A stretch of 64,000 nucleotides of DNA from Lacunisphaera limnophila (GCF_001746835.1 NZ_CP016094.1:1054001-1118000), one strand, 5' to 3'; positions 11,868-47,213 are shown, numbered from the stretch's first letter. The notes: a model not told the origin generated them from the sequence alone. Numbers and translations: made by a program.

Positions 11868-11880
11868 GGGAGGGTTGGGT

Positions 11881-12609
11881 CTAGGGTTGGGAGGAAACGG
11901 AAAGGCTGCGGAAACGCGCCGCCTCGACACGAAGGACGGGAAGTTCCTTCTGGAAACGAGGGGAAGAGAGGAAGGCTCGGGCGAGCCGCTCGCCGGCGAT
12001 GAGTCCGGCGCTCACGTCGCTTGGATAATGGTGCCCGCCCCAGATCCGCATCCACCCCTGACGACGGATTTCAGCCTCCAGCCGGGGCCGGCATTCCGGG
12101 TGCAGCTCCGCGAGCAGGAGACCGAGGTTGTAGAAACTCCACACCTTGGCACTGGGATAGGATCCGATGTCGGTGCGGGTGCCGAGCAGGCGCACCCTTT
12201 CGTCCCGGTTCGGCGGCCGCGACCGCGGGTAGGCCTGGCGGGCGGCCGCGAGAAAGGCCTCGAAATCCGCCCGCACCCCGGCGAGCACCCGGTAGGTTTC
12301 CGGACGGTTGACGGCATTGAAGTGCGGGCCGAGCACATCGCGGATGAACTCATCCCACGGCCGGTCGCCGTGGGCTTTGGCGTCGGTAAATTCCGCCTCG
12401 CTCAGGCGGCTCTGCACCCAAAGCACCGTTTCCAGATCGGCGAGATCCTCCGGCGATCCGGGCGCCGGTGGCGGCGGCAACAGCGTCGCCACCGGTGCCT
12501 CCGCCAGAGTAAGGTAGGCCGAGACGGTGCTTTGGGCGGTTTGCGCTCCGGCGATCGCCCAGAGGAGCAGGACGGTGGAGGAGATCCGGATGAGGTGGCG
12601 GCGTTTCAT
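11881..12609 (-). CDS. PAP2/class A acid phosphatase-like secreted protein with altered active site
   Basis: 242 residues with an N-terminal signal ([15 protein letters not shown]). The C-terminal motif [11 protein letters not shown] (188-198) fits the third PAP2 motif, R-x5-H-x3-D, including the nucleophilic His194 and Asp198. Motif 1 is R124-x6-RP instead of K-x6-RP. Motif 2 reads SYPSAKV where active enzymes have PSGH, so the second catalytic histidine is a lysine. Class A members are periplasmic non-specific phosphatases. This one may be catalytically impaired or have another substrate. The ATG overlaps the end of the PepSY gene by 4 bp, placing it firmly in the operon. Confidence 0.75.
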
Positions 12610-16987: not shown

Positions 16988-17881
16988 TTAATCCGTGGTG
17001 TGGCGCACGGTGTGCCGTTCGTGCCGGGCGCGGCGCAGAGCAGCCAGCAACCCATACCGCGGGCTGCCCACGGCGGACATGAGGAACCCCGCGCCGAGGC
17101 ACAGCACGATGGCCGGTCCGCTAGCGAGGCCGGTGTGATAGCTAAGGAGGAGGCCCACGGTGGATCCGACCATGCCCGCGCCGACCGAGCACCCGAGCAT
17201 GCCGCCGAAGCGGTCGCACCAGAGGTAGGCGGTGGCGGCCGGCAACAGGAAAAGCCCCAGCGCCAGGATCACGCCCATGGTCTGGAGCGCGGCCACCAAA
17301 TTGAGCACCGCCAGAGCCAGGAATCCGAGATGAAACCAGCCGCCACCGAGGCCCGCGGTGCGGGCGAACACCGGATCAAAGACCTCAAGGATGATCCCGC
17401 GCCGGAAGAGACCGAAACCCGCGACAGTCAGTGCGGTGGCCCCGGCGGTGAACCAGAGATCGGCCGGCGCCACCCCGAGCACGTGGCCGAAAAGAAAATG
17501 GAGCAGGTCCACCCGGGTGCCCGCATGGCTCACCAGGGCGATGCCACCGGCGTAGGCGATCAGGAAAAAAGCCCCGAAGGCGGCGTCTTCCTTCAACCGG
17601 GTCAGCCGGCTCAGCAAGGCGCTGCCCAGCGCGGTGAGCAGTCCGGCCAGCAACGCGCCCAGCAGCAACGCCCCGGGGCCACGGCCGAGCAGGAACCAGC
17701 TGGCCGCTAGTCCGGGCAGCAACGAGTGCGAAAGAGCGTCCCCCATCAGGGACATGCGGCGCAGGACCAGCACGCTGCCGAGCATGCCCCCGCTCACGCT
17801 GAGCAGCAGCGCCGAGCCCAGCCCGCGCTGCATGAAGCCGTAGTGCCAGGGCTCGCTGAGCATGTTCCAGACGGCGCTCAT
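16988..17881 (-). CDS. znuB: Zinc/manganese ABC transporter permease (ABC-3 family, ZnuB-like)
   Basis: 297 residues with about eight hydrophobic segments. SLMGDALSHSLLPGLA near residue 45 is the conserved cytoplasmic region of ABC-3 permeases, and ALQTMGVILALGLFLLPAATA near residue 195 is the second hallmark. The protein forms the inner-membrane channel for Zn2+ or Mn2+ delivered by the binding protein. Its ATG overlaps the ATPase stop by 4 bp. The C-terminus has several histidines (RHERHTVRHTTD). Family alone does not separate zinc from manganese; the COG0523, ThrRS-like and ZnuD-like neighbours favour zinc. Confidence 0.9.
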   Translation of the reverse strand: MSAVWNMLSEPWHYGFMQRGLGSALLLSVSGGMLGSVLVLRRMSLMGDALSHSLLPGLAASWFLLGRGPGALLLGALLAGLLTALGSALLSRLTRLKEDAAFGAFFLIAYAGGIALVSHAGTRVDLLHFLFGHVLGVAPADLWFTAGATALTVAGFGLFRRGIILEVFDPVFARTAGLGGGWFHLGFLALAVLNLVAALQTMGVILALGLFLLPAATAYLWCDRFGGMLGCSVGAGMVGSTVGLLLSYHTGLASGPAIVLCLGAGFLMSAVGSPRYGLLAALRRARHERHTVRHTTD

Positions 17882-18621
17882 GGGCGGGCTCCCAGCACCG
17901 GGATGCGTTGGCGGTAGGCCGCGGCGAGATTGTCGTCGGTCAACACGGCGTCGACCGACCCCGCCGCGACCAGGCGCGTGTCCAGCAGCAGGGCATGGGC
18001 GAAATGCACCCGCACGAGCGGCAGGTCGTGCACGGCGGCGATCACGGTGCGTCCCTGCCCCCGCCAGCGGTGCAGCAGATGCAGGAGTTCGGCGGTGGCC
18101 GCGAGGTCGAGCCCTGTGAACGGCTCGTCGAGAAGGAAAATGTCCGCCCCCTGCGCGACGGCCCGCGCGAGGAACATGCGTTGTTGCTGCCCGCCGGACA
18201 GCCGGCGGATCTGTTCGCCCCCGAAGGCGGTCAGGTCGAGCTCCTCCAGCGCCTCGTCCACGCGCTGCCAGTCGGCGGCGGTGAGCCGCCCGAAATACCC
18301 CCGCACCGGCCAGCGGCCCTGGGCCACCACTTCGCGGACGGAGACCGGAAAATCCCATTCCACCTCCGCGCGCTGCGGCAGGTAGGCCAGCCGCGGATGC
18401 AGGTGGCTGGGGTGCCGGTCGCCCAGCCGCACCTCCCCCCGGGTCAACGGCAGCCAGCCCAGCAAGGCCTTGAGCAAAGTGCTCTTGCCGGCTCCGTTGG
18501 GGCCAACCAGGGCGACCAGGCCGCCACAGGGAATCTGGGCCGTGACGCGCTCCAAGGCGCACCGCGCCCCGTAGTGCACGGTGATCTCGTGCAGGCGGAA
18601 GATGTCGTGGGATGATTCCAT
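17878..18621 (-). CDS. znuC: Zinc/manganese ABC transporter ATPase (ZnuC-like)
   Basis: 247 residues from the ATG at 18621, 5 bp after the binding-protein stop. Walker A is GPNGAGKST, the ABC signature LSGGQQQRM, Walker B IFLLDEP, and the switch histidine lies in AVHDL. Length and sequence fit the ATPases of ABC-3 (ZnuC/TroB/MntB) systems. It energises the permease encoded by the overlapping next gene. The large open frame upstream of 18621 is out of context and was not used. Confidence 0.92.
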   Translation of the reverse strand: MESSHDIFRLHEITVHYGARCALERVTAQIPCGGLVALVGPNGAGKSTLLKALLGWLPLTRGEVRLGDRHPSHLHPRLAYLPQRAEVEWDFPVSVREVVAQGRWPVRGYFGRLTAADWQRVDEALEELDLTAFGGEQIRRLSGGQQQRMFLARAVAQGADIFLLDEPFTGLDLAATAELLHLLHRWRGQGRTVIAAVHDLPLVRVHFAHALLLDTRLVAAGSVDAVLTDDNLAAAYRQRIPVLGARP

Positions 18622-18626
18622 GCGGG

Positions 18627-19523
18627 TCAGCGCAGCGCCTGCACGATGATCGTGAGGTTGTGCCGCATCAGCGCCTCGTAGGTCTGGGCCTCGTCCGCGC
18701 CCAGGCCGTCGGCGTGGAGCGTGCCGCCGAGCCGGACCCCGGTTTCGCGGATCACGGCCTCGACGAGGCGGTTTTGCGACGAACTCTCGGCGAACACGGC
18801 CTTGATCCGATGCCGCCGGATCAAGTCGATGATGCGCGCCAGCTGGCGCGCATCCGCCTCCTCCGCCGTGCTCAGCCCGATCAGCGGATGGACCGCAAAC
18901 CCATGCTCGCGGGCCAGGTAGCCGAAGGCGTCGTGCGTGGTCACCAGGTGACGGCGGTCCGACGGCAGTCCCGCCACCAGGGCGACGGACCACTCCCGCA
19001 GCTCCTCGAGACGCGCGCGATACGCCGCCGCGTTGCGGGCGAATTCCTCCGCCCGGGCCGGCCGGAGCCGGGACATTTCCCCGGCGACCACCTCCACCGC
19101 CGCCTGCACCTGGGTCAGGCCGTGCCACCAATGGGGATCGGGTTCTTCGGCGATCTGCCGGAAGTCGGGGCCGTGTGGAACCGCGCCTTGAAGGAGGCCG
19201 GGCAGCCGCGGACCCACCTCAATCAACCGGCCGGGAACGACCACCGCACCGAGGCGGTTCAGGTAGGTTTCCAAACCCAGACCACCGGCCAGCACGAGGT
19301 CGGCTTGCTCCAGCAGCCGCATATCGGCCGGCGTTGGCTCGAAAAGATGCGGATCGACGCCCGGCCGGACGAGCCCGGTGACCTCGACCCGGGATCCGCC
19401 CACCGAACGGACAATCTCCGTGAGCACCGTGTGCAAACTGACCACGCGCAGCGGCGCGACGGGCGATTCCGAACGCAATGAGCCGGCCAAAGCCAGACCA
19501 AGAATAAATAGACGCAGGATCAT
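18627..19523 (-). CDS. znuA: Zinc/manganese ABC transporter substrate-binding protein (ZnuA-like)
   Basis: 298 residues from the ATG at 19523 with a signal peptide. The four expected metal ligands of cluster A-I binding proteins are visible: His59 in DPHLFEPTP, His131 in DPHWWH, His197 in TTHDAFGY and Glu246 in FAESSSQNR. The acidic His loop of many ZnuA proteins is short here, reduced to the VPHGPDF to PDPHWWH region. Three His plus one carboxylate suits Zn2+ or Mn2+. It delivers the metal to the permease. It follows the methyltransferase by 10 bp, so the importer is embedded in the operon that starts with a COG0523 GTPase. Confidence 0.9.
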   Translation of the reverse strand: MILRLFILGLALAGSLRSESPVAPLRVVSLHTVLTEIVRSVGGSRVEVTGLVRPGVDPHLFEPTPADMRLLEQADLVLAGGLGLETYLNRLGAVVVPGRLIEVGPRLPGLLQGAVPHGPDFRQIAEEPDPHWWHGLTQVQAAVEVVAGEMSRLRPARAEEFARNAAAYRARLEELREWSVALVAGLPSDRRHLVTTHDAFGYLAREHGFAVHPLIGLSTAEEADARQLARIIDLIRRHRIKAVFAESSSQNRLVEAVIRETGVRLGGTLHADGLGADEAQTYEALMRHNLTIIVQALR

Positions 19524-19533
19524 GAGAAAGGGC

Positions 19534-20244
19534 TCAAGGCAGGATGGACTTGCGCCGCGCAAACCAGGCATGGATCAGAAGAGACTGGGAAATACGCACC
19601 GGCCGGTCGAAACCGGCTTCGACCAGCAGGGCTTCCATCACCGGCGCGGCCAACAGCGCCATGTCATGCTCATAGGTGGCAAACATGGCCTGAATCTGGG
19701 CCTCGCTCGCCCCGACATGCCGCATCATCTGCGACCAGACACCGAGCAAACGTTCGTGCTGCCCATCTGGCGCGGTGATCAGATCGGCCGTGATGAGCAG
19801 GCCGTCGGGCCGCAGGCGCCGCGCGATTTCGCGGAAGAACTCCGTGCGCCGCGCCCGGTCGGTGATGAATTGAGAAACGAGGACCGAGGTGGCCGCGTCG
19901 AAAGGCTCCCCCGCTGGCACTTCGTGGATGAAGCAGGAATGAAACTCGCAGCGGTCGGCGACGCCCGCCTCGGCCGCCTTCCGCCGGCAGACGTCCAGCA
20001 TGGGCGCGGAGGGATCGACCGCGACGAAGCGCCAGCCCGGAAAGAACCGGGCCAGCGCGAGCAGCTCCGCCCCGGTGCCGACACCCACGCAGAGCACGCG
20101 CGCGGCGGCGGGCAGCTGCTGCAGCACGAACCGCATCTGCAAGTGCAGGCTGTCACGCAACGGCGCCAGCGGCGCCCAGCGGTCGTCGTAGACCGCCGCG
20201 TGCTGCGCGTCAAAGGCGTTGGGTGAGGAACACGATTGGCTCAT
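19534..20244 (-). CDS. Class I SAM-dependent methyltransferase
   Basis: 236 residues from the ATG at 20244; an in-frame TTG at 20274 would add ten. Motif I is VLCVGVGTGAELL with the acidic end of strand 2 in FVAVDPS and a later ATSVLVSQFI. The C-terminal half is helical and ends near a basic ARRKS. The substrate is unknown. Its place between the small COG0523-linked gene and znuA implies a role in metal starvation. It could modify a metallophore, tRNA or protein, but nothing in the sequence selects among these. It is not a nicotianamine-synthase-like protein. Confidence 0.85.
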   Translation of the reverse strand: MSQSCSSPNAFDAQHAAVYDDRWAPLAPLRDSLHLQMRFVLQQLPAAARVLCVGVGTGAELLALARFFPGWRFVAVDPSAPMLDVCRRKAAEAGVADRCEFHSCFIHEVPAGEPFDAATSVLVSQFITDRARRTEFFREIARRLRPDGLLITADLITAPDGQHERLLGVWSQMMRHVGASEAQIQAMFATYEHDMALLAAPVMEALLVEAGFDRPVRISQSLLIHAWFARRKSILP

Positions 20245-20283
20245 GGAATGGTAAGCAACAGACGGGGAATGCAAAGGAAAGCC

Positions 20284-20508
20284 TCAGGCGAGGCCCAGCT
20301 CCCGCTGCGCCTGGGAAAACCAGACGAGCAGGTTGCGATGATGCGCCTCGCCGTAGAGGCGGCGCAGCTCGCGCGTGTGCGGATCATTCGTGTCGTTCAG
20401 GGCGGCGAGCCGGGCGGTCACAAAGGCGGGGGACAGTTCAATCCCGCACTTCACGGTGATGCAGTGCCGCCAGCCGGCGTAGGTGGAGGGGATGATTTCG
20501 TCGTTCAT
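20284..20508 (-). CDS. Small conserved-looking protein linked to the COG0523 GTPase
   Basis: 74 residues, soluble, with no signal. It begins MNDEIIPSTYAGWRHCITVKC; the two cysteines five residues apart, a later HHR and several tryptophans give possible metal ligands. The rest is helical (AFVTARLAALND, HTRELRRLYGEAHH). It is separated from the GTPase stop by 8 bp and shares its codon use, so it is a real translationally coupled gene. I do not know a named family. It could be a client or partner of the GTPase. Confidence 0.7.
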   Translation of the reverse strand: MNDEIIPSTYAGWRHCITVKCGIELSPAFVTARLAALNDTNDPHTRELRRLYGEAHHRNLLVWFSQAQRELGLA

Positions 20509-20516
20509 GGTTGGTT

Positions 20517-21761
20517 TCACTCCCATTTCGGGAACGGATCCTCGTAGGCGGACCAACGGCGGGGGCCGCGGGCAAATTCGTCGTCGGTGAGCAGGCAGGC
20601 GTCGAGCTGGGCGGTGAGCGCGGCCCGGTCCATGGCGTCGGTGCCAATGAACACGATCTCCTGGCGCCGATCGCCATAGGGTTCGTGCCATTTCAACTGG
20701 ATCGAGTTCAGCGATGCCGGCGAGGCCGGCCACTCGTTTTTCGGGGTGTCGGCCCACCAGTTGCCGATCTGCTCCACCCGTCGGATGCCGCCCGCCTGCG
20801 ACCACTCCCCCACCCACGCCATGCGCGTGGCCAGCCAGAAGAAACCCTTCGAGCGGATGACGTTCGCCGGCGCCCTCGAGGCCCAGGCATGGAAACGGGC
20901 CGGATGAAACGGCCGGCGGGCGCGATAGACAAAGCTGTTGATGCCGTATTCCTCCGTCTCGGGATGGACCTGCCCGCGCAGCGTCCGCAGCCAGAGCGGA
21001 AACTTGCTGGCGTGCTCCATCGAGAAACGGCGGGAATTGACGATTTCGCGCACCGGCACGCGGCCGTGCTCGGCGAAAAGGAAGTGCGCGTCGGGATTGA
21101 GCGTGCGGACCAGGTGCGTCACGAGCTCGAGCTCCTCCGGCTTCAGCAGGTCGCATTTGTTGAGGATGATCACGTCGGCAAACTCGATCTGCTCGGCGAG
21201 CAGCGTGGCCAGCGTGCGGGTGTCGCTGGCGTCGGTGGCCTGGCCGCGCTGGAAGAGCGAATCGTCGGAGCAGTAGTCCTTGAGGAAATGGTAGCCGTCC
21301 ACGACGGTCACCATCGTGTCGAGGCGGGCGACGTCGCCGAGGCTGACGCCGTCCTCGCCGGCAAAGGTGAAGGTCTCGGCCACGGGCAGCGGCTCGGCGA
21401 CGCCGGTGGACTCGATGACGAGGTAGTCGAAACGGCCTTCCTTCGCGAGGCGGGCGACCTCGACGAGCAGGTCCTCGCGCAGGGTGCAGCAGATGCAACC
21501 GTTGGAGAGTTCGACGATCTTTTCGCTGCGCTGGGCGACGGCCGCGGCGCCCTTGCCCACCAGCGCGGCGTCGATGTTCACCTCGGCCATGTCGTTCACG
21601 ATGAGCGCCACGCGCAGTCCCTCGCGGTTGGCGAGGATGTGGTTGAGGAGGGTCGTTTTGCCGGCGCCGAGGAAGCCGGAAAGCACGGTGACGGGGAGGC
21701 GGCGGTCGGTGGTTTCGACCTCCATTACGCCCGTGGCAGCGGAAGGATTGGGGGGATTCAT
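20517..21761 (-). CDS. COG0523 zinc-chaperone GTPase, first gene of the island operon
   Basis: 414 residues from the ATG at 21761. P-loop GFLGAGKTT (29-37), metal motif GCICC (88-92), [10 protein letters not shown], and NKCD (201-204) define the COG0523 G3E GTPases. The C-terminal half has the conserved [13 protein letters not shown] and ending FPKWE seen in the YciC/ZigA-like branch, which is typically induced by zinc shortage. It is predicted to hand zinc to a client under limitation. A nearly leaderless promoter with the 16-bp island element lies directly in front, back to back with the one for the ThrRS-like gene. Confidence 0.93.
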
Positions 21762-21776
21762 GCGGTGGGAACCTGG

Positions 21777-21796
21777 AGCATAGCAAAGTCGTCAAG
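21777..21796 (-). promoter_or_regulatory. Island element 1 with -10, driving the COG0523/znu operon
   Basis: On the minus strand CTTGACGACTTTGCTA (21796-21781) runs into TATGCT (21782-21777), a plausible -10. The ATG of the GTPase is 15 nt further on. No good -35 exists 17 bp upstream of the hexamer, so the element occupies the spacer region like an operator or activator site. The same 16 bp recur at 28147-28162, and with one change each at 21828-21843 and 31531-31546. Confidence 0.7.
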
Positions 21797-21827
21797 GGGG
21801 GTCGAACCGGCCGCCCGCGGCGGGGGG

Positions 21828-21847
21828 CTTGACGGCTTTGCTAGGGT
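21828..21847 (+). promoter_or_regulatory. Island element 2 with -10, driving the ThrRS-like gene
   Basis: CTTGACGGCTTTGCTA (21828-21843) differs by one base from element 1 and overlaps TAGGGT (21842-21847). The GTG start codon at 21854 begins six nucleotides after the hexamer, so transcription would start at or beside the start codon: a leaderless mRNA. Elements 1 and 2 lie 31 bp apart in opposite orientations, forming a divergent control region. Confidence 0.68.
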
Positions 21848-21853
21848 GGACGC

Positions 21854-22384
21854 GTGGAAACGAGTTTCATCACCCTGCACAAGGCCAAGCACCTGCTCTC
21901 GCATGTGCTGGTGGTGGCGGGCGCGCGCCGCTGGCCGCGGGCGCTGCTCGGGGAGAGCGGGGAGACGGCGACGGGGTTCTACGCCGACTTCGGCCTGATC
22001 GACCCGCCCGACGAGATCGAGCGGGGACTGTTGGCCGAGGAGATGGGGCGCGTGCTGGCGGGTTTTCAGATCTTCCGCGACGTGCAGCTCACGCCCCGCG
22101 AGGCCCGGGAGCGCTTTGCCGGCCAACCCTGGAAACAGCAGCAGGTGGCCGTGCTCGCGGAACTGGGCGAGCGCATCGGCTGCTACGAGCTCGACGGTTT
22201 TCTCGACGTCTGCGACTGCGCCATCAAGTCCCCCCGCGAATTGCGGGCCGTGCATCCGGAGAAGTTCCTGCTGACGGCCGCCGAGACCGTGCTCTGGCGC
22301 GACCGCACGGCCACGCGCCGCCTGGTGCGGATCACGGGCGAGATCTTCCCCGCTCCGCCACCTTGCGAGTGCTGCGTGCCGTGA
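21854..22384 (+). CDS. Free-standing threonyl-tRNA synthetase editing-like domain
   Basis: 176 residues. Although far shorter than ThrRS (~640), it reads along the N2 editing domain of bacterial ThrRS: HKAKHLL (9-15) matches HSAAHLL, GFYADFG matches the GFYYDF region, LTPREARERFAGQPWK matches the SREEA...PYK helix, and DGFLDVC matches DFVDLC. His9, His13 and Cys120 keep three editing-site ligands; the fourth, normally His in CRGPH, is Ile124. No catalytic or anticodon domain follows. The tail ends CECCVP, an unusual Cys cluster. GTG is the only start that keeps the HxxxH. Zur-controlled full-length ThrRS paralogues next to COG0523 genes are known in cyanobacteria; a stand-alone domain is different. 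Confidence 0.72.
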   Translation: METSFITLHKAKHLLSHVLVVAGARRWPRALLGESGETATGFYADFGLIDPPDEIERGLLAEEMGRVLAGFQIFRDVQLTPREARERFAGQPWKQQQVAVLAELGERIGCYELDGFLDVCDCAIKSPRELRAVHPEKFLLTAAETVLWRDRTATRRLVRITGEIFPAPPPCECCVP

Positions 22385-22413
22385 GCCAGCCACGGAGATG
22401 AAACTGCATGCGA

Positions 22414-23187
22414 TCATCTTGCTGATCTGAGTTCAAACCGCCCCAAGCGCTCCGAGAAAACCACCTCGCGGGTGTCGAAGGCGCGGCCGATGGCTCCGGC
22501 GGACACCAACTCAGGGGTCGTGCCCGTCACCAGTCCGCCCTGGCCGCCCAACAGCCAGATCGTGTCGGCCAGTTGCAGCGATAGATCAAGGTCGTGACTG
22601 GAGAGGATCACCGAGGCCCCAGATGTGCGCGCGTGCTCACGCAGCAGCGTCATCACCTCGACCCGTCCCGGCAGGTCGAGGAAGGCGGTGATTTCGTCCA
22701 GCAGCAGCAGCCGGGCGTCCTGCGCCATGGCCCGCGCAATCATCACGCGCTGGCGCTCGCCGTCGCTGAGGTCGTCGAAGAGCCGGCCGCGAAAGGCCGC
22801 CGCCCCCGCCCGGGCAAAGGCGGATGTGATGCGGGCGTGATCGTCCGCTGTTAGCCGCCCCGTCCAGCCGGTGAACGGCTGGCGTCCCAGGGCCACGACG
22901 TCGTCCGCGGTCAAACCGGGGCTGGAGGCCCGCTCGGTCAGGACCACGGCGATCCGCCTGGCCCGCTCGGCGGCGGGTAGGCGGTCGACCTCGTCGCCCT
23001 GCACTCGCACGCAGCCGGCCAGCGGCGGCAACAATCCTGCCAGCGTGCGCAGCAGCGTGGACTTGCCGGCGCCGTTGCGGCCGAGGACGCAGACAAAGCG
23101 TCCGGCTTCGGTGTGCAGCGACACCGGGGCAAGCACCGCGCCGCGCGCGCCGGGATAGCCAACGGATAAATCTGAGGTGGTGAGCAT
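22414..23187 (-). CDS. FecE/BtuD-type ABC transporter ATPase
   Basis: 257 residues from the ATG at 23187, overlapping the permease stop by one base (TGATG). Walker A GRNGAGKST, signature LSDGERQR, Walker B LLLLDEI and the switch histidine in SSHDLDLSL are all intact. The sequence is of the chelate/B12 importer ATPase class that pairs with FecCD permeases. It is the last gene of the small protein B operon and converges on the ThrRS-like gene with 29 bp between stops. Confidence 0.9.
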   Translation of the reverse strand: MLTTSDLSVGYPGARGAVLAPVSLHTEAGRFVCVLGRNGAGKSTLLRTLAGLLPPLAGCVRVQGDEVDRLPAAERARRIAVVLTERASSPGLTADDVVALGRQPFTGWTGRLTADDHARITSAFARAGAAAFRGRLFDDLSDGERQRVMIARAMAQDARLLLLDEITAFLDLPGRVEVMTLLREHARTSGASVILSSHDLDLSLQLADTIWLLGGQGGLVTGTTPELVSAGAIGRAFDTREVVFSERLGRFELRSAR

Positions 23188-24230
23188 CAGCGGCTTCCTC
23201 GCATTGACGGAGAATAGATCAGGAGGGCGATCACCACCGGGGCCCCGACGATGGCGAGCACCGCGTTGAGGTGCAGGAAGTGTTGCGGCCAGGGCAGGTG
23301 CACGACGAGGTCCGCCGCGAGGGCCAGCGCCGCGCCGGCGAGGGCCGCCAGCGGGAGCAGCGAGCCCACCCTCGCTGTGCCCGCAAGGGCCCGCGCAAAG
23401 TGCGGCACAATCAAGCCGACAAAGGTCACCGGCCCACAATAGGCCGTCACCGGTGCCACGAGCAGGACCGCCGCCGCCAGCGTGCCGACGCGCACCCGGC
23501 CAAGATCCACGCCCAACGATCGCGCATAGGTCTCGCCCAGCAGGAGCGACGTCAGCGGCTTGGCCACGAGCACCGCGCCGATCAGGCCGAGCACCACCGG
23601 CGCGGCGAGCACGGGCAGCTCACCGGTCGTCACCCCGGCGAAATTACCGTCGTTCCAGCCGGAATAGATCCGGCCGCCGGCGCGGCTGGCGAAGTGCATG
23701 ATCACACTCACGAGTCCCTGCGACGTGAACCACGTCATCAGGCCGACCACGAGGAGCGACACCGTATTCAGTCGCCGTCCGAGCATCAGCATCAGCGAGG
23801 CGGCGACCGCGACCCCGATCCCGGCGGCCACGGTAAGACTCAGGCCCTGGAAGGCCCCGAGAAACGACAACGCCGCCGGCCCGGCGAAGGCCGCCGCCGC
23901 GACGGCCAGCGCCACGCCAAGTTGGCCGCCAGCCGTAAGCCCGAGCGACCACGGATCGGCCATCGGGTTGCGAAACAACGCTTGCATCAGGACCCCACCG
24001 ACCCCGAGCGCCGCTCCGGCGAGCAACGCGGTGGCGATGCGCGGCAACCGGATCTCCCGCACAATTTGCCGGGAGATGTCGTCCCGCTCCGGTGAGAAAA
24101 GGGCCGACCCAATCTCCCCGGGCGGCAACCACACGTGCCCAATGGCCAGCGCGAGATAGCCAAGCACGAGCACGAGTGCCACTAGGCCGGCACTTCCGGC
24201 CACGACGCGTTTGTTTGTTATTCCGGTCAT
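23187..24230 (-). CDS. FecCD/BtuC-family ABC transporter permease
   Basis: 347 residues with about ten hydrophobic segments. RLPRIATALLAGAALGVGG followed by LFRNPMADPWSLGLTAGGQLG is the family signature, and GPVTFVGLIVPHFAR near residue 265 is the conserved cytoplasmic coupling region. FecCD permeases import iron- or zinc-chelates, heme or cobalamin. The ATG overlaps the binding-protein stop by 4 bp. It belongs to an operon headed by the island element and a TonB receptor, an arrangement like zinc-responsive TonB-FecBCD operons known in Pseudomonas. Confidence 0.92.
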   Translation of the reverse strand: MTGITNKRVVAGSAGLVALVLVLGYLALAIGHVWLPPGEIGSALFSPERDDISRQIVREIRLPRIATALLAGAALGVGGVLMQALFRNPMADPWSLGLTAGGQLGVALAVAAAAFAGPAALSFLGAFQGLSLTVAAGIGVAVAASLMLMLGRRLNTVSLLVVGLMTWFTSQGLVSVIMHFASRAGGRIYSGWNDGNFAGVTTGELPVLAAPVVLGLIGAVLVAKPLTSLLLGETYARSLGVDLGRVRVGTLAAAVLLVAPVTAYCGPVTFVGLIVPHFARALAGTARVGSLLPLAALAGAALALAADLVVHLPWPQHFLHLNAVLAIVGAPVVIALLIYSPSMRGSR

Positions 24231-25441
24231 GGGGACGAGGCGACAGTGCGCACGGGTTCGAGATAGCGGAAAGGTTCCGGCCGCAGTTCCGGGTGCAGCG
24301 CCTTGATGATGTCGCCCAGCAGGTAGTCCGGGCGCAGAATGCCGATCTCGTAGATCTCGTAGGCATCGCGTTCCCGCTTCTGGCGTCCGGTCACGGCAAA
24401 GACCCGGCCCTCCCGCCAAGCCTTGAAGCGCCGCAAGACGCGCTCGTCCGGATAAGCCTTCGAATGCGGGTCGCCGCTTACCCAGACATCAGCCTCCGTC
24501 CCCTGGCGCAGCAACGCCTCGGTTGAAAGCCATGAGAAGTTGTCCCGCCTCAGGTCGTCGGACTCACCGAGCAGCAGTTCGGCATGGGCGTCGTGGATCT
24601 GGTGCGCATCGGCGTTCCGCACGGTGACCGCCCACTTGTCACCTGCTCCAGGCCAGGCCCAGAGCAGGCGCTGGCGAGGCTGGGTGGCAGCCAGCGCCTT
24701 GAGGCGCGCATACTCGGAGTCGACTTCGGCGACGAAATGTTCCGCCTCGGCCTCGCGGCCGGTGAGCAGGCCGACGAGGCGAACGTATTCCGTCCGGCCG
24801 AGGCAGGTCGGCTCCGCCTCGACGAACATGGGCACGACCGGAATGCCTAACGCCTGGAGCCTTGGGATGGACTCGGCGTGGGAAATATCGCCCAGAGCCA
24901 TTAGAAACACCTCCGGCCGCGCCGCCACGAGCGCGTCCATCACCGGCGGGCTGTGCCAGCCATAGCCGACCTGAGCGAGTTCGCCGGATTTTACCCGCGC
25001 ATGAATCGCATCGTCATAGGAGAACGTGCCGCCGACGGCCACGAGCCGGTCGGCCACGCCGAGTACGTTCAGCATGGCCTCGTGCGAGGTGTAGTTTACG
25101 GCCACGCGCCGCACCGGGGTGCGGATGATCGGCGCACCAGCGAGATCGGGCGGCAACGCGGGGAGCGTGGCCTCGCGCGGCACCAGGATGAGCCGGGCGG
25201 TCTGTTCCTGCCCGCCGGCAGCGGCTCCCCAACTCACGATCGAGGCGCGCAGGGTCACCACGCGATATCCGGCTCCCTCCTCAACCGTGAAGGTGCGCGC
25301 ATGCCGGAGCGGCAGCACTGTGTGTGTCGACGCGACCGCGGCCACGGCGCCAGGCTCGGGCGCACGCCCGCAGCCCGCCGCGACCAGCAGGATCGCGGCG
25401 AGGATGCCCGGAAGGAAGGGAGCGGTGCGCTCAGAACGCAT
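24227..25441 (-). CDS. FepB/BtuF-like lipoprotein, substrate-binding protein of the FecCD importer
   Basis: 404 residues. The signal ends in the lipobox LVAAGC (Cys24). The mature protein has two lobes: RVAVNYTSHEAMLNVLGVADRLVAVGG opens the N-lobe, and the C-lobe follows the RLLWAWPGAGDKWAVTV region, the layout of class III binding proteins. It is longer than BtuF (~250) and resembles the larger metal-chelate binders. Several His (HSPPVMD, HQIHDAHAE) could contribute to metal recognition. Its start overlaps the end of receptor B by 11 bp, so the pair is translationally coupled and likely shares a ligand. Confidence 0.87.
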   Translation of the reverse strand: MRSERTAPFLPGILAAILLVAAGCGRAPEPGAVAAVASTHTVLPLRHARTFTVEEGAGYRVVTLRASIVSWGAAAGGQEQTARLILVPREATLPALPPDLAGAPIIRTPVRRVAVNYTSHEAMLNVLGVADRLVAVGGTFSYDDAIHARVKSGELAQVGYGWHSPPVMDALVAARPEVFLMALGDISHAESIPRLQALGIPVVPMFVEAEPTCLGRTEYVRLVGLLTGREAEAEHFVAEVDSEYARLKALAATQPRQRLLWAWPGAGDKWAVTVRNADAHQIHDAHAELLLGESDDLRRDNFSWLSTEALLRQGTEADVWVSGDPHSKAYPDERVLRRFKAWREGRVFAVTGRQKRERDAYEIYEIGILRPDYLLGDIIKALHPELRPEPFRYLEPVRTVASSP

Positions 25442-27647
25442 AGCGCAGGGTGGTCAGGAACTGCCGGGGCGCTCCAGGATACGCTTCCACGGGTTCGCGG
25501 CTCGTGCCGCGCAAGAGGTTGTATTCCTTGTCGAAGGCATTTCGGACTACGACGCTCCACTCCCATTGCGAGGCCTGCTTGGGCCGCCAGGTGAGGCTGA
25601 TGTTCGCCAAGCCGTGGGCACCGTCCACCAGCTGGTTCAATCCATCAACCGGATAGTCGCCGACGTAGTCATACCACGCGCTCAGCGCGAGGCCGGCCGC
25701 CGGAAGATTTTTCGTGAGGCCGAAAGAGAACTGGTGCTTAGGCACGCGCACCACGCTCTTGCCCGAGAGGTCGATCTCCTCGCCGGTGAACTCGTCCACG
25801 ATAAAGCGATTCTTGATCCACTTCGCGTCGGTATAGGTGTAACTGGCGAAGCCACTCAAGCCCTCCGCAACGGCGCGCAAATCAAAGCGCGCCTGCAGTT
25901 CCAAACCTTCGGCACGCTGCTTACCGGCGTTGATGGTCTTGGTCGCGACGCCATCGGCGACGTATTGGAGCAAATCCTGGCGTTCGAGGCGATATACCGT
26001 GGCGGTCAGCCCCAGCGCACGGTCGAAGAACTCACCCTTCACCCCGACCTCGAAGTTACGGGCTGTTTCGGGCTTGAGCGTGGTGTCACGTCCGCCGAAT
26101 GACCAGACCGGCCCGAACGCCGGACTGAAGCCCTCGCCGTAGGCGAAATACGTGCTAAGCTGCGGCGTCCACTGGTAGAGCGCGGAAAACTTCGGACTGA
26201 GGTTGTCGTCGCTATCGGCTTTTCGACTGCCGGGGAGCGTGACGGTGCCGTTTTCCTCTGTCGTCGGACCAAAGGCCACGTCGCGTTCGAAGCGATCGAG
26301 CCGCGCGCCGACCGTGAGCGTCAGGCGGTCGGTCGCCTTGAACTCATCCTGCACAAACAGCGCCCCGACCTTCACGTCGGTGTCTGCGTCCAGCAAGCGG
26401 TCCTGGATCCAGTCCGCCTTGTTCAGTAGCGCGCCGGTGCGGTAGCTGCGGAACTGGTTGTAGAAGTAGAAATCAAACGTGGCGAAATCGAAGCCGTATT
26501 GGCCCGTCCAGGTCTCGCGATCCTGGCTGGCGATCCATTCATGGTTAGCCCCGACCAGCAGGTGGTTGCGGGCGGTCTTCCAGGACACCTGCGCCTCGGC
26601 GAAGGTGGTTTGATCCGAGCCGTCGCCCCGAAAGCCGTTCCAGCGGATCGTCTCCGCAACTTCGTCAAATCCCTCGTTGAAACCGCCGTTGTAGAGCGAG
26701 TCATTGTCGCGGTGGTGGAGCGTGAACGTCGCCTCCACGGCGTCGCTGACCGCGAGCTTCGCCCTGGCCGTCCCGAACCATAGCGTGCGTTCGGAACGGG
26801 CGTCATCGATGTTGGTGTTGGCCTCGCGCCCGCCCGTGACCGCGACGATGCTGCCGTCGGCGCGCAGCGGGAGGTGGCTGGCGATCTGCTGCTCGGTGTC
26901 GGAGTAGCTCCCGGAGAGCGTCAGTTCCAGTTTCGGCGTCACCTGCCACACGTCCTTCAGAAAGGCCGAGGAGGAGCGGCGCGCCGTGCGGTCGCGCCAG
27001 CCGTCGCCGCGTTCGTGACCGAGGCGCACGAGCAGGCGGTTGGTGTCACTCACGGGCGTGCCGTAGACGAGCGAGGGGGCGAAGTAGTTGTTGCTGCCGT
27101 AAGAGAGAGTCAGTTCCCCGGCAGCCTGGTCGCCGACCTCGCGGGTGGAATACGCGACCGCACCGCTCACCCCGCCGCGGCCATAGAGCGCGGAAACCGG
27201 ACCGCGCACGACTTCGACGCGATCCACCGCGCCATACGGCACCGATTCCAAGAGGACCTCGTCGTCCGGCGTCACAAAGGGCACGCCGTCGAGCAGGAGG
27301 AGGAAAGTGTCGTTGAGGTGACGCTCTGGCGCACCGCGGATGACGAGGGCGGCCTCGACGCCGGATTGTTCCTGGCGGAGGGTCACGCCGGGCACGCCGA
27401 CGAGCTCCTCGCCGATCCGGAGGAGGCCCTTGTTTTCGCGGTCCTTGAGGGACACGACGGAGACACTGGCCGGAACTTCAATGAGTGGCTTTTCGGTGCG
27501 GGTCGCTGACACCACGAGGGTGTCGAGCTTCACGAACGGGTCGGCGATTTTGACACCGGGTTCGGCCGGAGGCAGCTGGACCTGGGCGATCGCGAACGAG
27601 GTCGTGAACGCAAGGGAAGGAACAAGGCGGGAAAGACGGAGATTCAT
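25431..27647 (-). CDS. TonB-dependent outer-membrane receptor B
   Basis: 738 residues from the ATG at 27647, with a short signal (SLAFTTSFAIAQ). A TonB box-like DTLVVSATR precedes the plug (EVPASVSVV, LRQEQSGVEAALVIRGAPE, then RVEVVRGPVSALYGRGG), and the barrel ends in FLTTLRYAF. The plug is of the general FepA/CirA type. It lacks the long His/acidic loops of ZnuD, so a metal chelate is the better guess for its ligand. It is coupled by overlap to the FecBCD-type importer and preceded by small protein B and a hairpin. Confidence 0.93.
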   Translation of the reverse strand: MNLRLSRLVPSLAFTTSFAIAQVQLPPAEPGVKIADPFVKLDTLVVSATRTEKPLIEVPASVSVVSLKDRENKGLLRIGEELVGVPGVTLRQEQSGVEAALVIRGAPERHLNDTFLLLLDGVPFVTPDDEVLLESVPYGAVDRVEVVRGPVSALYGRGGVSGAVAYSTREVGDQAAGELTLSYGSNNYFAPSLVYGTPVSDTNRLLVRLGHERGDGWRDRTARRSSSAFLKDVWQVTPKLELTLSGSYSDTEQQIASHLPLRADGSIVAVTGGREANTNIDDARSERTLWFGTARAKLAVSDAVEATFTLHHRDNDSLYNGGFNEGFDEVAETIRWNGFRGDGSDQTTFAEAQVSWKTARNHLLVGANHEWIASQDRETWTGQYGFDFATFDFYFYNQFRSYRTGALLNKADWIQDRLLDADTDVKVGALFVQDEFKATDRLTLTVGARLDRFERDVAFGPTTEENGTVTLPGSRKADSDDNLSPKFSALYQWTPQLSTYFAYGEGFSPAFGPVWSFGGRDTTLKPETARNFEVGVKGEFFDRALGLTATVYRLERQDLLQYVADGVATKTINAGKQRAEGLELQARFDLRAVAEGLSGFASYTYTDAKWIKNRFIVDEFTGEEIDLSGKSVVRVPKHQFSFGLTKNLPAAGLALSAWYDYVGDYPVDGLNQLVDGAHGLANISLTWRPKQASQWEWSVVVRNAFDKEYNLLRGTSREPVEAYPGAPRQFLTTLRYAF

Positions 27648-27718
27648 GGTGATGGGCTGAAGGGCTGGGAGAGTTCCTGCGGTCGCAGCACGCCGCGACC
27701 GGACATACGGAAACAAGC

Positions 27719-27747
27719 GGGTGCGCCGCGGACAGCGCGGCGCACCC
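27719..27747. other. Hairpin between small protein B and receptor B
   Basis: GGGTGCGCCGC (27719-27729) and GCGGCGCACCC (27737-27747) form a perfect 11-bp stem with a 7-nt loop, inside the 117-bp gap between the two genes. No T tract follows. The position matches the hairpin of the A pair, suggesting a shared way of setting the small-protein to receptor expression ratio. Confidence 0.5.
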
Positions 27748-27764
27748 ACACACACAACTACCAA

Positions 27765-28133
27765 TCAGACCACCGGCGGCGCGTGCGACGGCACGTGCCG
27801 GTAGCGCGGCCGGGCCGCGCGGAAGGTCTCGGACAAACCGCCGGGAACGGTTGCGAAGGTCGGTTGCTCAACGACGGGCAGCCTCCAGACCACCAACGGG
27901 AGCACCCCGTGACAAAAAAGTGTGACCGCGCAACCCGCCTCCTCCGCCGCGGCGGGCGCTTCATCGGTGTGATGATGCTCGCAGGCGTGGGTCTCGTCGC
28001 CTGCATGGCCGTGCAGCCAGACGTGGACCGCCGGCGAGGCGGCGGCCACGGTCAGAAGCAGCACAAGCCCCGCCCCCACCCCGGCGATGATTCGCCGGGA
28101 CAAGGAGGGCTGAGGTGGGACGGATAACTTCAC
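27765..28133 (-). CDS. Small His/Cys membrane protein B, paired with receptor B
   Basis: 122 residues from a GTG at 28133. It has an N-terminal hydrophobic segment (about 14-32), then ASPAVHVWLHGHAGDE, then HACEHHHTDEAP, CAVTLFCHG, a second hydrophobic segment, and RYRHVPSHAPPVV at the end. It is the most His-rich of the three paralogues. The GTG lies 9 nt after the -10 of island element 3, so it is first in its operon and practically leaderless. No function is known; a periplasmic metal-binding or receptor-assisting role is inferred from the histidines and the fixed pairing. Confidence 0.72.
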   Translation of the reverse strand: MKLSVPPQPSLSRRIIAGVGAGLVLLLTVAAASPAVHVWLHGHAGDETHACEHHHTDEAPAAAEEAGCAVTLFCHGVLPLVVWRLPVVEQPTFATVPGGLSETFRAARPRYRHVPSHAPPVV

Positions 28134-28142
28134 GCGGCTTTA

Positions 28143-28162
28143 CTTATAGCAAAGTCGTCAAG
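28143..28162 (-). promoter_or_regulatory. Island element 3 with -10, driving the small protein B operon
   Basis: Minus-strand CTTGACGACTTTGCTA (28162-28147) is identical to element 1 and overlaps TATAAG (28148-28143), a good -10. The GTG of small protein B follows nine nucleotides later. The element sits 4 bp past the stop of the ZnuD-like gene, so it separates two operons that otherwise run in the same direction. Confidence 0.7.
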
Positions 28163-28166
28163 CACC

Positions 28167-30278
28167 TCAGAAGCTGAAGCGCACGCCGGCGGTGAAGTTC
28201 CGGCCGGGCAGCGGGGCGAGGTCCTTCAGGAAGGAGGCGTGCACGCGGGCGGTCTCGTCGAGGAGGTTGCGGCCCTGCACGAACAGCTCGCCGTGGGTCC
28301 GGCCGGCGGTGAAGCGCCAAGCGGTGCCGATACCAACCATGTCGTAGGCGGGCGAGGCGGTCTCGCCGGGGGCGAGGCGGTCCGCTTTGACCACGTGCCG
28401 CCAATCGGCCGACACGGACCACGGGCCGTGCTGCCAGTCGAAGCCCAAGCCGAGGCGCACCGGCGTGGTGCGCGGCAACGGCGTGTCGTCCGACGTGTTC
28501 GTCGCCCGCACGCTGTCGGCCATCACCCGGACATCGGCGACCGTCTCCTTGGTCTCGTGCAGATGGAACACCAGCTCGGCCTCGGCGCCGTAGAGCTCGG
28601 CGTCGCGCTGCACAAAGGCGTAGACGGGCAGGCCGTCCTCCTCGGCCCCGGTGGCCGCCTCGTAGATGTAGCCGTCGAAGCGGTTCAAAAACACGCTGAG
28701 CTCGCCCGTGACCGCGCCGCGGCGGTGGCGGTAGCTAAGGTCGAGGCCGCGGGACTGCTCGGTGCCCAACGTGGGATCGCCCAGCTCGTAGGCGCCGGTG
28801 CCGGCATGCGGACCGTCAGCGTAGAGTTCCTGCGCGTTGGGGGCACGCTCATTGGCCGACGCCGACAAGGCCAGGCTGCCCGCCTCGCTCACGCGCCAGA
28901 TCAGGCCGGCCGTGAAGGTCTCCCCCGTGTGGCGGCGCGCCGGCAGGCCGGAGACGGCTGCGGGCGTGATCTTCTGCCATTCGACGCGGGCGCCGAACTG
29001 CGCCGTCCAGTCACCCCGCCCGCGTTCCTCATAGAGGAAGACGGCCTGCTGCCGCGTCACGGACGGCGGCATGAAGGCCTCCGCACCGGCCGCGGCGAAA
29101 TCACTCCGGGCAAATTGCCAGCCGAGGGCGCCCTCGAAGTCACCGACCTTCTCGTGCAGCAGCTCGAGCCGGCCCTCATGGGCCTGGTTGGTGAAACGGG
29201 TGCCGATCTCGTCCCCCTCGAGCTCGGTATGCTCATAGTCTGCCACGCCCAACTGGAAGCGGGCGGCGCGCAGGAGACCCACGGGGGCCAGCCACTCGCC
29301 GTGCACGTCCCCGCGGCGCTGCCGCAGATCGATGCGCACGCCGCCGTGCTCGTCATGACCTGCGTCCTCATCCTCCGCCTCGCCGGCCGCGGGCTCCTCC
29401 TCGTGATGCTCGTGGCCGGGCACGCCATACAGGGAGTCCAAACCGCTGTAGCTGAAGCCGAGGTGGCCCCGGCCGCCGATGTAGCTCAGGCCGAAGGCGG
29501 CGCCGTTCGTCTCCGTCGCGGTGTTGGGCAGCGTGCCGAAGGCCGGGGCCTCCTCCTCGTGCTCCTCGCCGGCGTGTTCTGCCTCCTCAAGTTCATGCTC
29601 GGCGCGCAGGGCCGCCGTCTCCGCAAAGCCGGGGATGTCGATGTCCCCCGTCAGGCGGCGGAAACCGTCGAGCCGCCAGGCAAACTGGCCGGCGGCGCCG
29701 GTCAGGACGCCGGCCGTCGTACGCTCGTCGGCCGCGGTGTCACCCCGCACCTCGAGCCGGCCCGTGACGGGTCCGGCCGGCAGGGCCTCGGGAATACGGC
29801 CGTCGATGACGTTGACCACGCCGCCGATGGCGCCGCCGCCGTAAAGCAAGGCGGCCGGGCCGCGCACGACCTCGACGCGGTCGATCAGCAGGGGATCCAG
29901 GCTCACGGCGTGGTCGGGGCTCACGACGGAGGCGTCGAGCGTGCCGACGCCGCCCGTGAGCACACGGATGCGGTCGCCGCCGAGGCCGCGGATGACCGGC
30001 CGGCTGGCGCCAGGCCCGAAATAGGTGGAGTCCACGCCGGGCAGACCGGCGAGTGTTTCCCCGAGGGTGCCCTGCTGGCGCCGCGCGAGGGCGTCGCCTG
30101 CCAGCACGTGGGTCGGTGCGCTGATTTCATCGGCGCCGCGGGCGAGCGGACTGGCCGTGACGACCAGATCGTCGAGATGGAGCGGGTCCGCCGGCGGGGC
30201 CGGCGGCACGGTTTGGGCGCGCCCCGCGACTGCGGCGAGCGCCAGAAAGGTAAGGGAAAAGGAATGACGGAAAGACAT
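28167..30278 (-). CDS. ZnuD-like TonB-dependent zinc receptor (receptor C)
   Basis: 703 residues from the ATG at 30278, with a signal ending AAVAGRAQ. The plug has HLDDLVVTASPL, ETLAGLPGVDSTYFGPGASR, VIRGLGGDRIRVL and RVEVVRGPAALLYGGGAIGG. Two loops are rich in His and acid: HAGEEHEEE near residue 245 and GHEHHEEEP...GHDEHGG near 300-325. The barrel ends FTAGVRFSF. His/Asp/Glu loops with this plug are the features of ZnuD-type receptors, which bind free zinc at the surface and are Zur-regulated in Neisseria and relatives. It follows small protein C and the UreH-like gene in the operon headed by island element 4. Confidence 0.88.
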   Translation of the reverse strand: MSFRHSFSLTFLALAAVAGRAQTVPPAPPADPLHLDDLVVTASPLARGADEISAPTHVLAGDALARRQQGTLGETLAGLPGVDSTYFGPGASRPVIRGLGGDRIRVLTGGVGTLDASVVSPDHAVSLDPLLIDRVEVVRGPAALLYGGGAIGGVVNVIDGRIPEALPAGPVTGRLEVRGDTAADERTTAGVLTGAAGQFAWRLDGFRRLTGDIDIPGFAETAALRAEHELEEAEHAGEEHEEEAPAFGTLPNTATETNGAAFGLSYIGGRGHLGFSYSGLDSLYGVPGHEHHEEEPAAGEAEDEDAGHDEHGGVRIDLRQRRGDVHGEWLAPVGLLRAARFQLGVADYEHTELEGDEIGTRFTNQAHEGRLELLHEKVGDFEGALGWQFARSDFAAAGAEAFMPPSVTRQQAVFLYEERGRGDWTAQFGARVEWQKITPAAVSGLPARRHTGETFTAGLIWRVSEAGSLALSASANERAPNAQELYADGPHAGTGAYELGDPTLGTEQSRGLDLSYRHRRGAVTGELSVFLNRFDGYIYEAATGAEEDGLPVYAFVQRDAELYGAEAELVFHLHETKETVADVRVMADSVRATNTSDDTPLPRTTPVRLGLGFDWQHGPWSVSADWRHVVKADRLAPGETASPAYDMVGIGTAWRFTAGRTHGELFVQGRNLLDETARVHASFLKDLAPLPGRNFTAGVRFSF

Positions 30279-30386
30279 GACGGAGCTGGGTTGAGGAAGA
30301 CCGGGGCGCGGCAAGGCGCAGCCCGGACCAAGAGACGGAAAACGGCCAGGGCGCCACGCGCCTCAGCCGGAACGGTTCGGTTCAAC

Positions 30387-30743
30387 TCAGGCCGCCGGCG
30401 GCGCGTGCGACGGCACGAGCCGGTAACGGGGCGACAAAGCCACGACCTCATCGGTCGCGCGCAGCGTCAGGCCGGCCACGGTGGGCCGCGCCAGGATCAG
30501 CAGGAACAGCACCAGCAGGGTCATCGCCCCCTGGGCAAAAAGCGTCACCGCACAGGCATGGTCCGCATCGCCGACCGGGGCATCGGGCCCGGGATGCGCA
30601 CAGCCGGCTTGCCCGGCATCGGGCGCGGCGTGCAACCCGGCGTGCAACCCGGGGCTAGCGGCCAGGACCGCCAGCACCAGCACGCACAACGCCGCCACCA
30701 GGGCGGTGGCGCGGGTCAGCGGGTGCTCGGCGGGACGGGACAT
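30387..30743 (-). CDS. Small His/Cys membrane protein C, paired with the ZnuD-like receptor
   Basis: 118 residues from the ATG at 30743. The hydrophobic N-terminus (about 12-32) leads to ASPGLHAGLHAAPDAGQAG, then CAHPG, DHACAVTLFAQG, a second hydrophobic segment and SPRYRLVPSHAPPAA. It shares the order ASPxxH, CxH, CAVTLF, hydrophobic segment, RYRxVPSHAPP with paralogues A and B; B and C are closest at the C-terminus. The gap to the receptor is 108 bp. The open frame extends upstream to 30866, but the ATG at 30743 gives the paralogue-like start. Confidence 0.72.
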   Translation of the reverse strand: MSRPAEHPLTRATALVAALCVLVLAVLAASPGLHAGLHAAPDAGQAGCAHPGPDAPVGDADHACAVTLFAQGAMTLLVLFLLILARPTVAGLTLRATDEVVALSPRYRLVPSHAPPAA

Positions 30744-30798
30744 GCGGGAGAAGAAGGACGGGGACGCGTGCGTGTCAAATGAAGTGTGGGACCCGGCC

Positions 30799-31503
30799 TC
30801 AGCCGTGCGCGTGGAAATGCTCGACCAGGATGAACGCCCCGCCGCAGAGGATGAGCAGGGTGCCAAGGACCTGGGCCTCGCATTTTTCCAGCCACTTGAA
30901 GCGCACCCGCTCGACCCCCAGCAGCGTCAGCCAGGTGAACAGCAGCATCGCCGCCCAGGTGCCGGCCGCGAGGAGCACGCTGAGGAGCGTCACGCCGCCC
31001 CAGCCGAACTGCACGCCCGCCAGATAGACCGGGAGCAGCCCCTCGCAGGGGGAAAAGGTCAGCATCGTGAACAGGCCGCTGATGGCCGCCCAGTCGCTGG
31101 TGCGGGCGACCGGTTTTGCCGGCTCATGGTGATGGCCGTGCCCATGATCGTGCTGGCAGTGTCCCTCGATCCACTCGCCATGCCCGTGGGTCCACCCGCG
31201 CCAGTGCCGGACGAGGATGAGGACGCCGATGGCGATCAGCGCGCCGCCCGCCAGATAGGGGAAGGTCTCGACCCAGTGCTCGTCGATCTGGAGGCCGAAC
31301 CAGGCCAGCGCCAGGCCGATCGCCGTCATCACCAGCAGGTGACCGCCCGAGCAAAGCGTCACGATCGCCAGGGTCCGCCCCCGGGACCAACCCTGGGCCC
31401 GCGCCACCACCACGAAGGGCAGCCAGTGCGTCGGGATCGCGGCATGGATGAACGCGACCGAGAGGCCGGTGGCGGCGAGGGTGAGGAAGGCGGCGAGATC
31501 CAT
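30799..31503 (-). CDS. UreH/NicO-like His-rich membrane transporter
   Basis: 234 residues with six hydrophobic segments. TM1 has HAAIPTHWLPFVVVARAQGW and TM2 TLCSGGHLL, the conserved His pattern of UreH/RcnA-like (NicO) carriers; the family Asp of HxxxxDH is replaced here. The central loop is loaded with His: HGHGEWIEGHCQHDHGHGHH (about 113-132). The second half has TFSPCEGLLPVYLAG. Relatives move nickel or cobalt; here the island element and ZnuD-like neighbour suggest zinc, direction unknown. The ATG at 31503 is chosen because frame upstream runs through element 4. Confidence 0.78.
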   Translation of the reverse strand: MDLAAFLTLAATGLSVAFIHAAIPTHWLPFVVVARAQGWSRGRTLAIVTLCSGGHLLVMTAIGLALAWFGLQIDEHWVETFPYLAGGALIAIGVLILVRHWRGWTHGHGEWIEGHCQHDHGHGHHHEPAKPVARTSDWAAISGLFTMLTFSPCEGLLPVYLAGVQFGWGGVTLLSVLLAAGTWAAMLLFTWLTLLGVERVRFKWLEKCEAQVLGTLLILCGGAFILVEHFHAHG

Positions 31504-31526
31504 GCTGGGAAGGTGTAGGCGGACCC

Positions 31527-31546
31527 ACCCTACCAAAGTCGTCAAG
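31527..31546 (-). promoter_or_regulatory. Island element 4 with -10, driving the UreH-like/ZnuD-like operon
   Basis: Minus-strand CTTGACGACTTTGGTA (31546-31531) has one change from elements 1 and 3 and overlaps TAGGGT (31532-31527). Its flanks, GGGGG before and GGGTGG after, match element 2 more than the other copies. The ATG follows 23 nt after the -10, the longest leader of the four. Confidence 0.68.
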
Positions 31547-31685
31547 CCCCCTTGTGGCCGGGAACGCCCGATTGGGCCGCCTTGAGGCCGTTAGGCGACC
31601 CGGTCCGCTTTCTTGACCGACGCTGGAATAAGCCAGCTCGCCGAACCTCTTCCCTCTACATCCGCTCCGCCGACTCCCCTAGCCT

Positions 31686-32222: not shown

Positions 32223-32247
32223 GATCGATCCAAGTCCGGTCCGGCCC

Positions 32248-47123: not shown

Positions 47124-47213
47124 GTGCCCCGTCTCGGACTGGCCGAATCGACCGGGGCTCGTTTACCGCGGCCCCGCCCGCACCATGGGGGCGCTTCCAC
47201 CCCCCCGCACTCC

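Follow-up and report, generated by a model that had tools for sequence, protein, structure and literature searches.

The window analyzed here, a stretch of 64,000 nucleotides (64 kb) of the Lacunisphaera limnophila genome, carries a metal island on its minus strand that starts at about 31.5 kb and reaches down to 9 kb. It begins with a TctB-like His-rich membrane protein, a small His-rich protein, a ZnuD-like receptor, and a second small His-rich protein, continues with a TonB receptor, a FecBCD-type importer, zigA, a 74-aa protein, a methyltransferase, and znuABC, and ends with a further TonB receptor, a PepSY protein, a second COG0523 GTPase, and DUF3299-type proteins. The main genes of the window are as follows.

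30799..31503, minus strand: TctB-like His-rich membrane protein, with invariant HAxxPTHW, GH, and SPCE motifs
28167..30278, minus strand: ZnuD-like TonB-dependent receptor (NF038289, 428.7 bits, below the cut-off of 950)
27765..28133, minus strand: 122-aa His-rich exported/membrane protein, whose homologs in relatives stand behind the element described below
25431..27647, minus strand: TonB-dependent receptor (PF00593/PF07715, TIGR01783)
24227..25441, minus strand: periplasmic binding protein of a siderophore/metallophore-type ABC importer (PF01497)
22414..23196, minus strand: ABC ATPase belonging with the binding protein above to one importer (PF00005), with a permease before it at about 23187-24240
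21854..22384, plus strand: free-standing ThrRS N2/editing-like domain protein, GTG start (1tje, E 0.0065; TIGR00418, E 0.014)
20517..21761, minus strand: zigA, COG0523 zinc metallochaperone GTPase (NF038288, 603 bits, cut-off 600)
20284..20508, minus strand: 74-aa protein (MNDEIIPSTYAGW...), preceded in relatives by its own element (L138; L381 site 16573)
18627..19571, minus strand: znuA, zinc-binding protein of an ABC importer (PF01297, 227.6 bits)
17878..18590 (start approximate), minus strand: znuC ATPase, 66% identical to the ZnuC behind the element in a relative (L023)
16988..17881 (start approximate), minus strand: znuB permease, 65% identity to the same relative (L023)
10509..11930, minus strand: second COG0523 GTPase, at the far end of the island (PF02492/PF07683)
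47124-48086: AraC-type regulator gene
61224-61877: response regulator gene

The island contains four copies of a short element. The sequence-only reading had placed its 16-bp core at 21796-21781 (minus) and 28162-28147 (minus) exactly, and with one change each at 21828-21843 (plus) and 31546-31531 (minus); these positions were all recovered, and each copy is indeed intergenic and directed into the gene that follows.

21777..21796, minus strand: copy 1, CTTGACGACTTTGCTATGCT, exact 16-bp core and exact family consensus, facing zigA
21828..21847, plus strand: copy 2, CTTGACGGCTTTGCTAGGGT, one change in the 16-mer, family consensus exact, facing the ThrRS-domain gene
28143..28162, minus strand: copy 3, CTTGACGACTTTGCTATAAG, 16-mer exact, without the final T of the consensus
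31527..31546, minus strand: copy 4, CTTGACGACTTTGGTAGGGT, one change in the 16-mer, facing the gene for the TctB-like/His-rich membrane protein

Copy 2 is oriented opposite to the island and points into the free-standing ThrRS N2/editing-like domain gene, and copy 3 lies in the 33-bp gap that separates the ZnuD-like gene from the small His-rich protein. From the first base of the element, the gene starts are 35, 26, 29, and 43 nt away for copies 1-4, and the -10-like hexamers that the copies were said to overlap are present as described (TATGCT, TAGGGT, TATAAG, and TAGGGT, respectively). All four copies precede genes of the zinc-uptake or zinc-sparing type. The gene set first proposed held: ZigA, ZnuA, the ZnuD-like receptor, and the ThrRS-like domain (a weak match, E 0.0065-0.014) were found. 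As a small correction, znuABC does not stand immediately behind any copy. It lies three genes downstream of zigA, and we infer that zigA through znuABC form one operon.

The four copies do not behave like random matches. With up to three mismatches allowed, the window gives four matches, whereas 0.19 are expected by chance, and none of 100 shuffles reached four. In the complete genome, a single contig of 4,199,284 bp, no further match has one mismatch or fewer; the next eight all carry three mismatches, and the reversed pattern yields 20. The scan of this genome and its relatives that had been proposed as a check thus found a motif that is not scattered, the genome's own copies being confined to one 10-kb metal island. 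The flanks of the four copies are entirely different, so they are not a duplicated block.

A refined element, (C/G)TTGACG-NN-TTTG-N-TA-NNN-T, was derived from the relatives. The consensus was built from 66 orthologous sites, and a looser pattern with at most one mismatch was dropped because its control counts were nearly as high across genomes. In the 66-site profile, (C/G)-TTGACG-NN-TTTG-N-TA-NN-(G)-T, the TTGACG block is invariant and the final T is conserved at 98%. The exact consensus has 112 matches in 83 of 150 genomes of the Opitutaceae, a family of soil, water, and gut bacteria, versus about nine for the reversed pattern. When the whole collection was scanned with the exact long core, 68 stretches were found, about 56 of them in Opitutaceae or in unplaced Opitutia/Verrucomicrobiota and the rest scattered singletons. 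In the order's other families, the consensus is no more frequent than expected by chance, and the same is true of a related pattern across the phylum. Apparent matches in other phyla, orders, and families were rejected as chance, and zinc genes are absent downstream of them. As judged from these sequences, the range of the element is almost exclusively the Opitutaceae.

Within the family, the upstream regions of TctB-like genes offered a sample of 89 (orthologs and paralogs) picked by protein and not by motif. The element was found within two mismatches upstream of 60 of them, while shuffled patterns averaged 0.0/89. Some family members have a TctB-like gene without the element (about 23/89), and the regulon is thus not universal in the family.

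The genes behind the element point to zinc. Among 107 non-redundant in-family sites, which were fetched by motif, 97 have a zinc-related or TctB-like gene on the same strand no more than 2 kb away, versus none of 15 out-of-family chance sites (Fisher p 5e-13); random 2-kb stretches of the same loci contain a listed gene in 141 of 600 cases. The commonest target, with about half of the sites, is the TctB-like membrane protein gene (53), followed by ZnuA (14), ZnuC (9), ZigA (5), ThrRS (4), HisI (3), COG0523, MerC, and the ThrRS-like domain (2 each), and Dcd, a TonB receptor, and a ZnuD-like receptor (1 each). As about half of the sites precede one uncharacterized protein family, the zinc assignment rests on the other half. 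In a count extended to 3.5 kb, seven of 115 in-family sites lack any listed gene, and at least five of these seven stand before small His-rich proteins (like 27765-28133) or a FeoB-like gene. In one relative (G117), the element precedes hisI and, at another site, a small gene with thrS and cysS behind it. Paralogs of HisI, ThrRS, and CysRS are among the Zur-regulated enzymes described beside COG0523 genes (PMC2770081), and znuABC, zigA/COG0523, hisI, thrS, cysS, and ZnuD-like genes match the content reported for Zur regulons (PMC2770081, PMC6103462). The target set therefore has the gene content of a Zur regulon, which supports the original call of a candidate metal-starvation regulon.

The same data bear on whether the similarity of the copies could come from chance, recent duplication, or a mobile repeat, as the confinement of the genome's own copies to 10 kb might suggest. 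We give this explanation practically no credence, as the flanks differ completely, shuffled and reversed patterns yield almost no matches, and in dozens of genera the element stands at zinc genes, orthologous or not, that lie on different contigs. With the target specificity added (97/107 versus 0/15), the chance and recent-duplication readings were ruled out.

Several relatives show further arrangements of the element. Six exact copies lie within 22 kb of one contig (G090:C57; L043:8595, 16590, 16738; L044:8629, 10994, 11115), where they precede MerC-like, flavoprotein/FeoB-like, HisI, dCTP deaminase, and ZigA genes; it would be unusual for such a regulon to include a zinc-sparing dCTP deaminase. 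In another genome (G046, L381), a cluster of elements occurs with identical spacing at two distant places on the chromosome, C1:353265-364587 and 7581431-7592761, as if the zinc island had been duplicated. The free-standing ThrRS N2/editing-like family is preceded by the element in the window (21854-22384, plus strand) and in two relatives (L137:3721-4251 and L056:10075-10650); the L137 protein matches TIGR00418 with an E of 8.8e-6. This domain is possibly a trans-editing or zinc-related factor that acts in zinc starvation.

The TctB-like protein has a predicted structure without a significant PDB match (CcdA, E 0.9). In relatives (L095, L156, L061, and others) its gene is often found beside heme biosynthesis genes, with hemE at 26 of 71 loci, hemF at 26 of 71, and a protoporphyrinogen-oxidase-like gene at 15 of 71 (names read from sequence). 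TctB-like genes, and no other targets, show a second conserved block, GTTCGACA(G), about 23-31 nt past the element's first T (e.g., L237, L245, and L264), which is kept in several relatives with a decayed first block (L254, L255, and L267). This block may serve as another operator or as a signal of the start region.

The architecture of the 66 sites suggests how such an element could work. Its profile positions T10, G11, T13, A14, and T18 read TGnTAnnnT, an extended -10, and no -35 hexamer is seen at the expected place in the profile, where a G/C run is found instead. The gap from TTGACG to TAnnnT is 7 nt, so TTGACG is too near the -10 to serve as a -35. The 3′ half, TTTGnTAnnnT, fits a predicted housekeeping extended -10 promoter without a -35. 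Among the 29 targets that are not TctB-like, 17 have their first in-frame start 4-14 nt past the T of TAnnnT, and in most targets of this kind the start lies 6-15 nt downstream of the site. As these start codons lie where transcription would begin, many such mRNAs would be leaderless or nearly so. The sequence-only reading had found no clear dyad and an overlap with the -10; both hold across the 66 sites, in which the best dyad reaches a mean complement probability of 0.38 over 10 pairs and the invariant TTGACG has no partner. The weak direct repeat that it also reported is borne out only faintly.

It is likely that this element is the shared control site of an Opitutaceae zinc-starvation regulon, in which an extended -10 is combined with a TTGACG read by a zinc-responsive regulator. 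More specifically, it is probably a lineage-specific zinc-starvation operator/promoter that is repressed when zinc is sufficient. In the mechanism that we propose, TTTGnTAnnnT would act as an extended -10 promoter lacking any -35 and as the source of partly leaderless mRNAs, and TTGACG, in the promoter spacer, would be the recognition site of the regulator. At sufficient zinc, the regulator would sit on TTGACG and block RNA polymerase; when zinc is short, it would depart from TTGACG. The derepressed cell would then make ZnuABC, TonB receptors, COG0523 chaperones, and second copies of HisI, ThrRS, and CysRS, which are zinc-demanding enzymes. From these sequence patterns, we infer the zinc response, repression over activation, and one dedicated reader of TTGACG. 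Repression is proposed by analogy; a promoter without a -35 could equally require an activator, and part of the conservation may be due to overlapping RNA polymerase contacts.

The same features could be read as a promoter class of its own, dependent on an alternative sigma factor or an activator and switched on in zinc starvation, and not as a repressor operator. The G/C run at the expected -35 place would fit, as would the fusion of TTGACG to an extended -10 directly before start codons. We consider this unlikely, as 7 nt between TTGACG and TAnnnT is too short for a two-block alternative sigma promoter, whose blocks lie 15-18 nt apart, and as the 3′ half matches the housekeeping extended -10. 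The sigma-54-type GG-N10-GC was not found either, as the profile shows no GG at the -24 position. Still less probable, to the point of being hard to defend, is an element that acts as RNA (a leader, riboswitch, or translational signal) and not as DNA. Its placement in the window, 26-43 nt ahead of the start codons, would suit it. However, across sites the element stands anywhere from 6 to 116 nt away from the start, no Rfam match was found in 20000-32500, the T and A of the -10-like part are conserved, and the mRNA would begin downstream of the element.

Which protein might read TTGACG was approached through the Fur family. The statement that no regulator gene lies in the window needs amending, as AraC-type and response regulator genes are present; it stands for Fur/Zur genes, none of which lies within the 64 kb. 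The genome encodes three Fur-family proteins, FurA (L063), FurB (L064), and FurC (L065). No element was found upstream of their genes, where a search with up to four mismatches gave a single match outside the promoter (L065:2416), and clustering of the neighborhoods of element sites showed no recurring regulator gene adjoining them. FurC has two CxxC motifs and its gene adjoins a superoxide dismutase gene; it was rejected, as it is missing from a finished genome that bears the element (G013) and from all three g11 genomes, in which the element stands before znuA. FurA, encoded beside sufC and PerR/Irr-like, was judged unlikely, as it is also absent from the Cephaloticoccus-group genomes G045 and G076, which bear the element. 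FurC is likewise absent from these two genomes, which keep the element. FurB (G000:C1:3059258-3059725) is nearly universal in the family. FurB and its orthologs, without the HHxH histidines, are very strongly conserved throughout the order. Many of the relatives' genomes are drafts, in which absences can be assembly gaps.

It is plausible, if somewhat short of probable, that an ordinary Fur-family Zur reads the element, with FurB as the best candidate and the right half of the site masked by the -10, hence the lack of a dyad. The target genes are those of a Zur regulon, and FurB is the sole Fur-family protein in G045 and G076, besides being found in nearly all family genomes. However, the dyad center is absent in the 66 sites, the Fur-family paralogs are far from the Zur model (19 bits versus a cut-off of 167), FurB lacks the usual HHxH metal site, and its recognition helix (VSRATVYRTLP or near) is unchanged in families of the same order without the element. 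FurB was also not found in three element-bearing drafts (G043, G025, and G018).

A non-Fur regulator specific to the Opitutaceae, reading TTGACGnnTTTG as a direct or asymmetric site, is a possibility that we hold tentatively. The site is asymmetric with a weak direct-repeat character and its range is restricted to the family; FurC is missing from the finished G013 and both FurA and FurC from G045/G076, and FurB, the third paralog, keeps the same helix where the element is absent. On the other side, no recurring regulator gene was found beside the sites, no candidate protein can be named, and Fur absences in drafts can reflect assembly gaps. The Fur presence patterns and the helix point either to FurB with a changed partner or site or to a regulator outside the Fur family. 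A further reading, possible but less likely than not, is that a zinc sensor of another family has replaced the Fur-type Zur in the Opitutaceae, with an asymmetric TTGACG fused to an extended -10 and partly leaderless transcripts.

Good maps of zinc regulons exist for proteobacteria, firmicutes, actinobacteria, and cyanobacteria. Our literature search, of incomplete coverage, found no earlier description of a zinc regulon of Verrucomicrobiota or of this element. AdcR/ZitR, of the MarR family, is a non-Fur repressor that jointly controls zinc-uptake genes, with a TTAAC-type dyad as its operator in streptococci and lactococci. The Opitutaceae element would resemble that system in the predicted joint control of zinc-uptake genes, but the TTAAC-type dyad is not seen in it. 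With the Zur regulons of E. coli, Bacillus, actinobacteria, and cyanobacteria, it shares a site that overlaps the promoter (here a predicted one) and a gene content of znuABC, COG0523, TonB receptors, and second HisI, ThrRS, and CysRS copies (PMC6103462, PMC2770081). However, published Zur boxes are palindromes (7-1-7, 9-1-9, or 23 bp), whereas this element has no dyad and overlaps an extended -10, and the consensus sequences of two classical Zur boxes had no match within the window. By its sequence features, the set would function like a Zur regulon without a palindromic box. Its zigA next to znuABC and its ThrRS/HisI paralogs are shared with the known COG0523/ZigA islands (PMC2770081), but in the window ThrRS is represented by a stand-alone N2-like domain, and across the family the element most often precedes the gene of an uncharacterized membrane protein.

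From a biological perspective, the element presents a predicted zinc site placed within an extended -10 instead of a palindrome. It assigns candidate functions to the TctB-like membrane protein, the small His-rich proteins, and the free-standing ThrRS-like domain, and its more than 100 consistent sites across the family would make a ready probe for its regulator.
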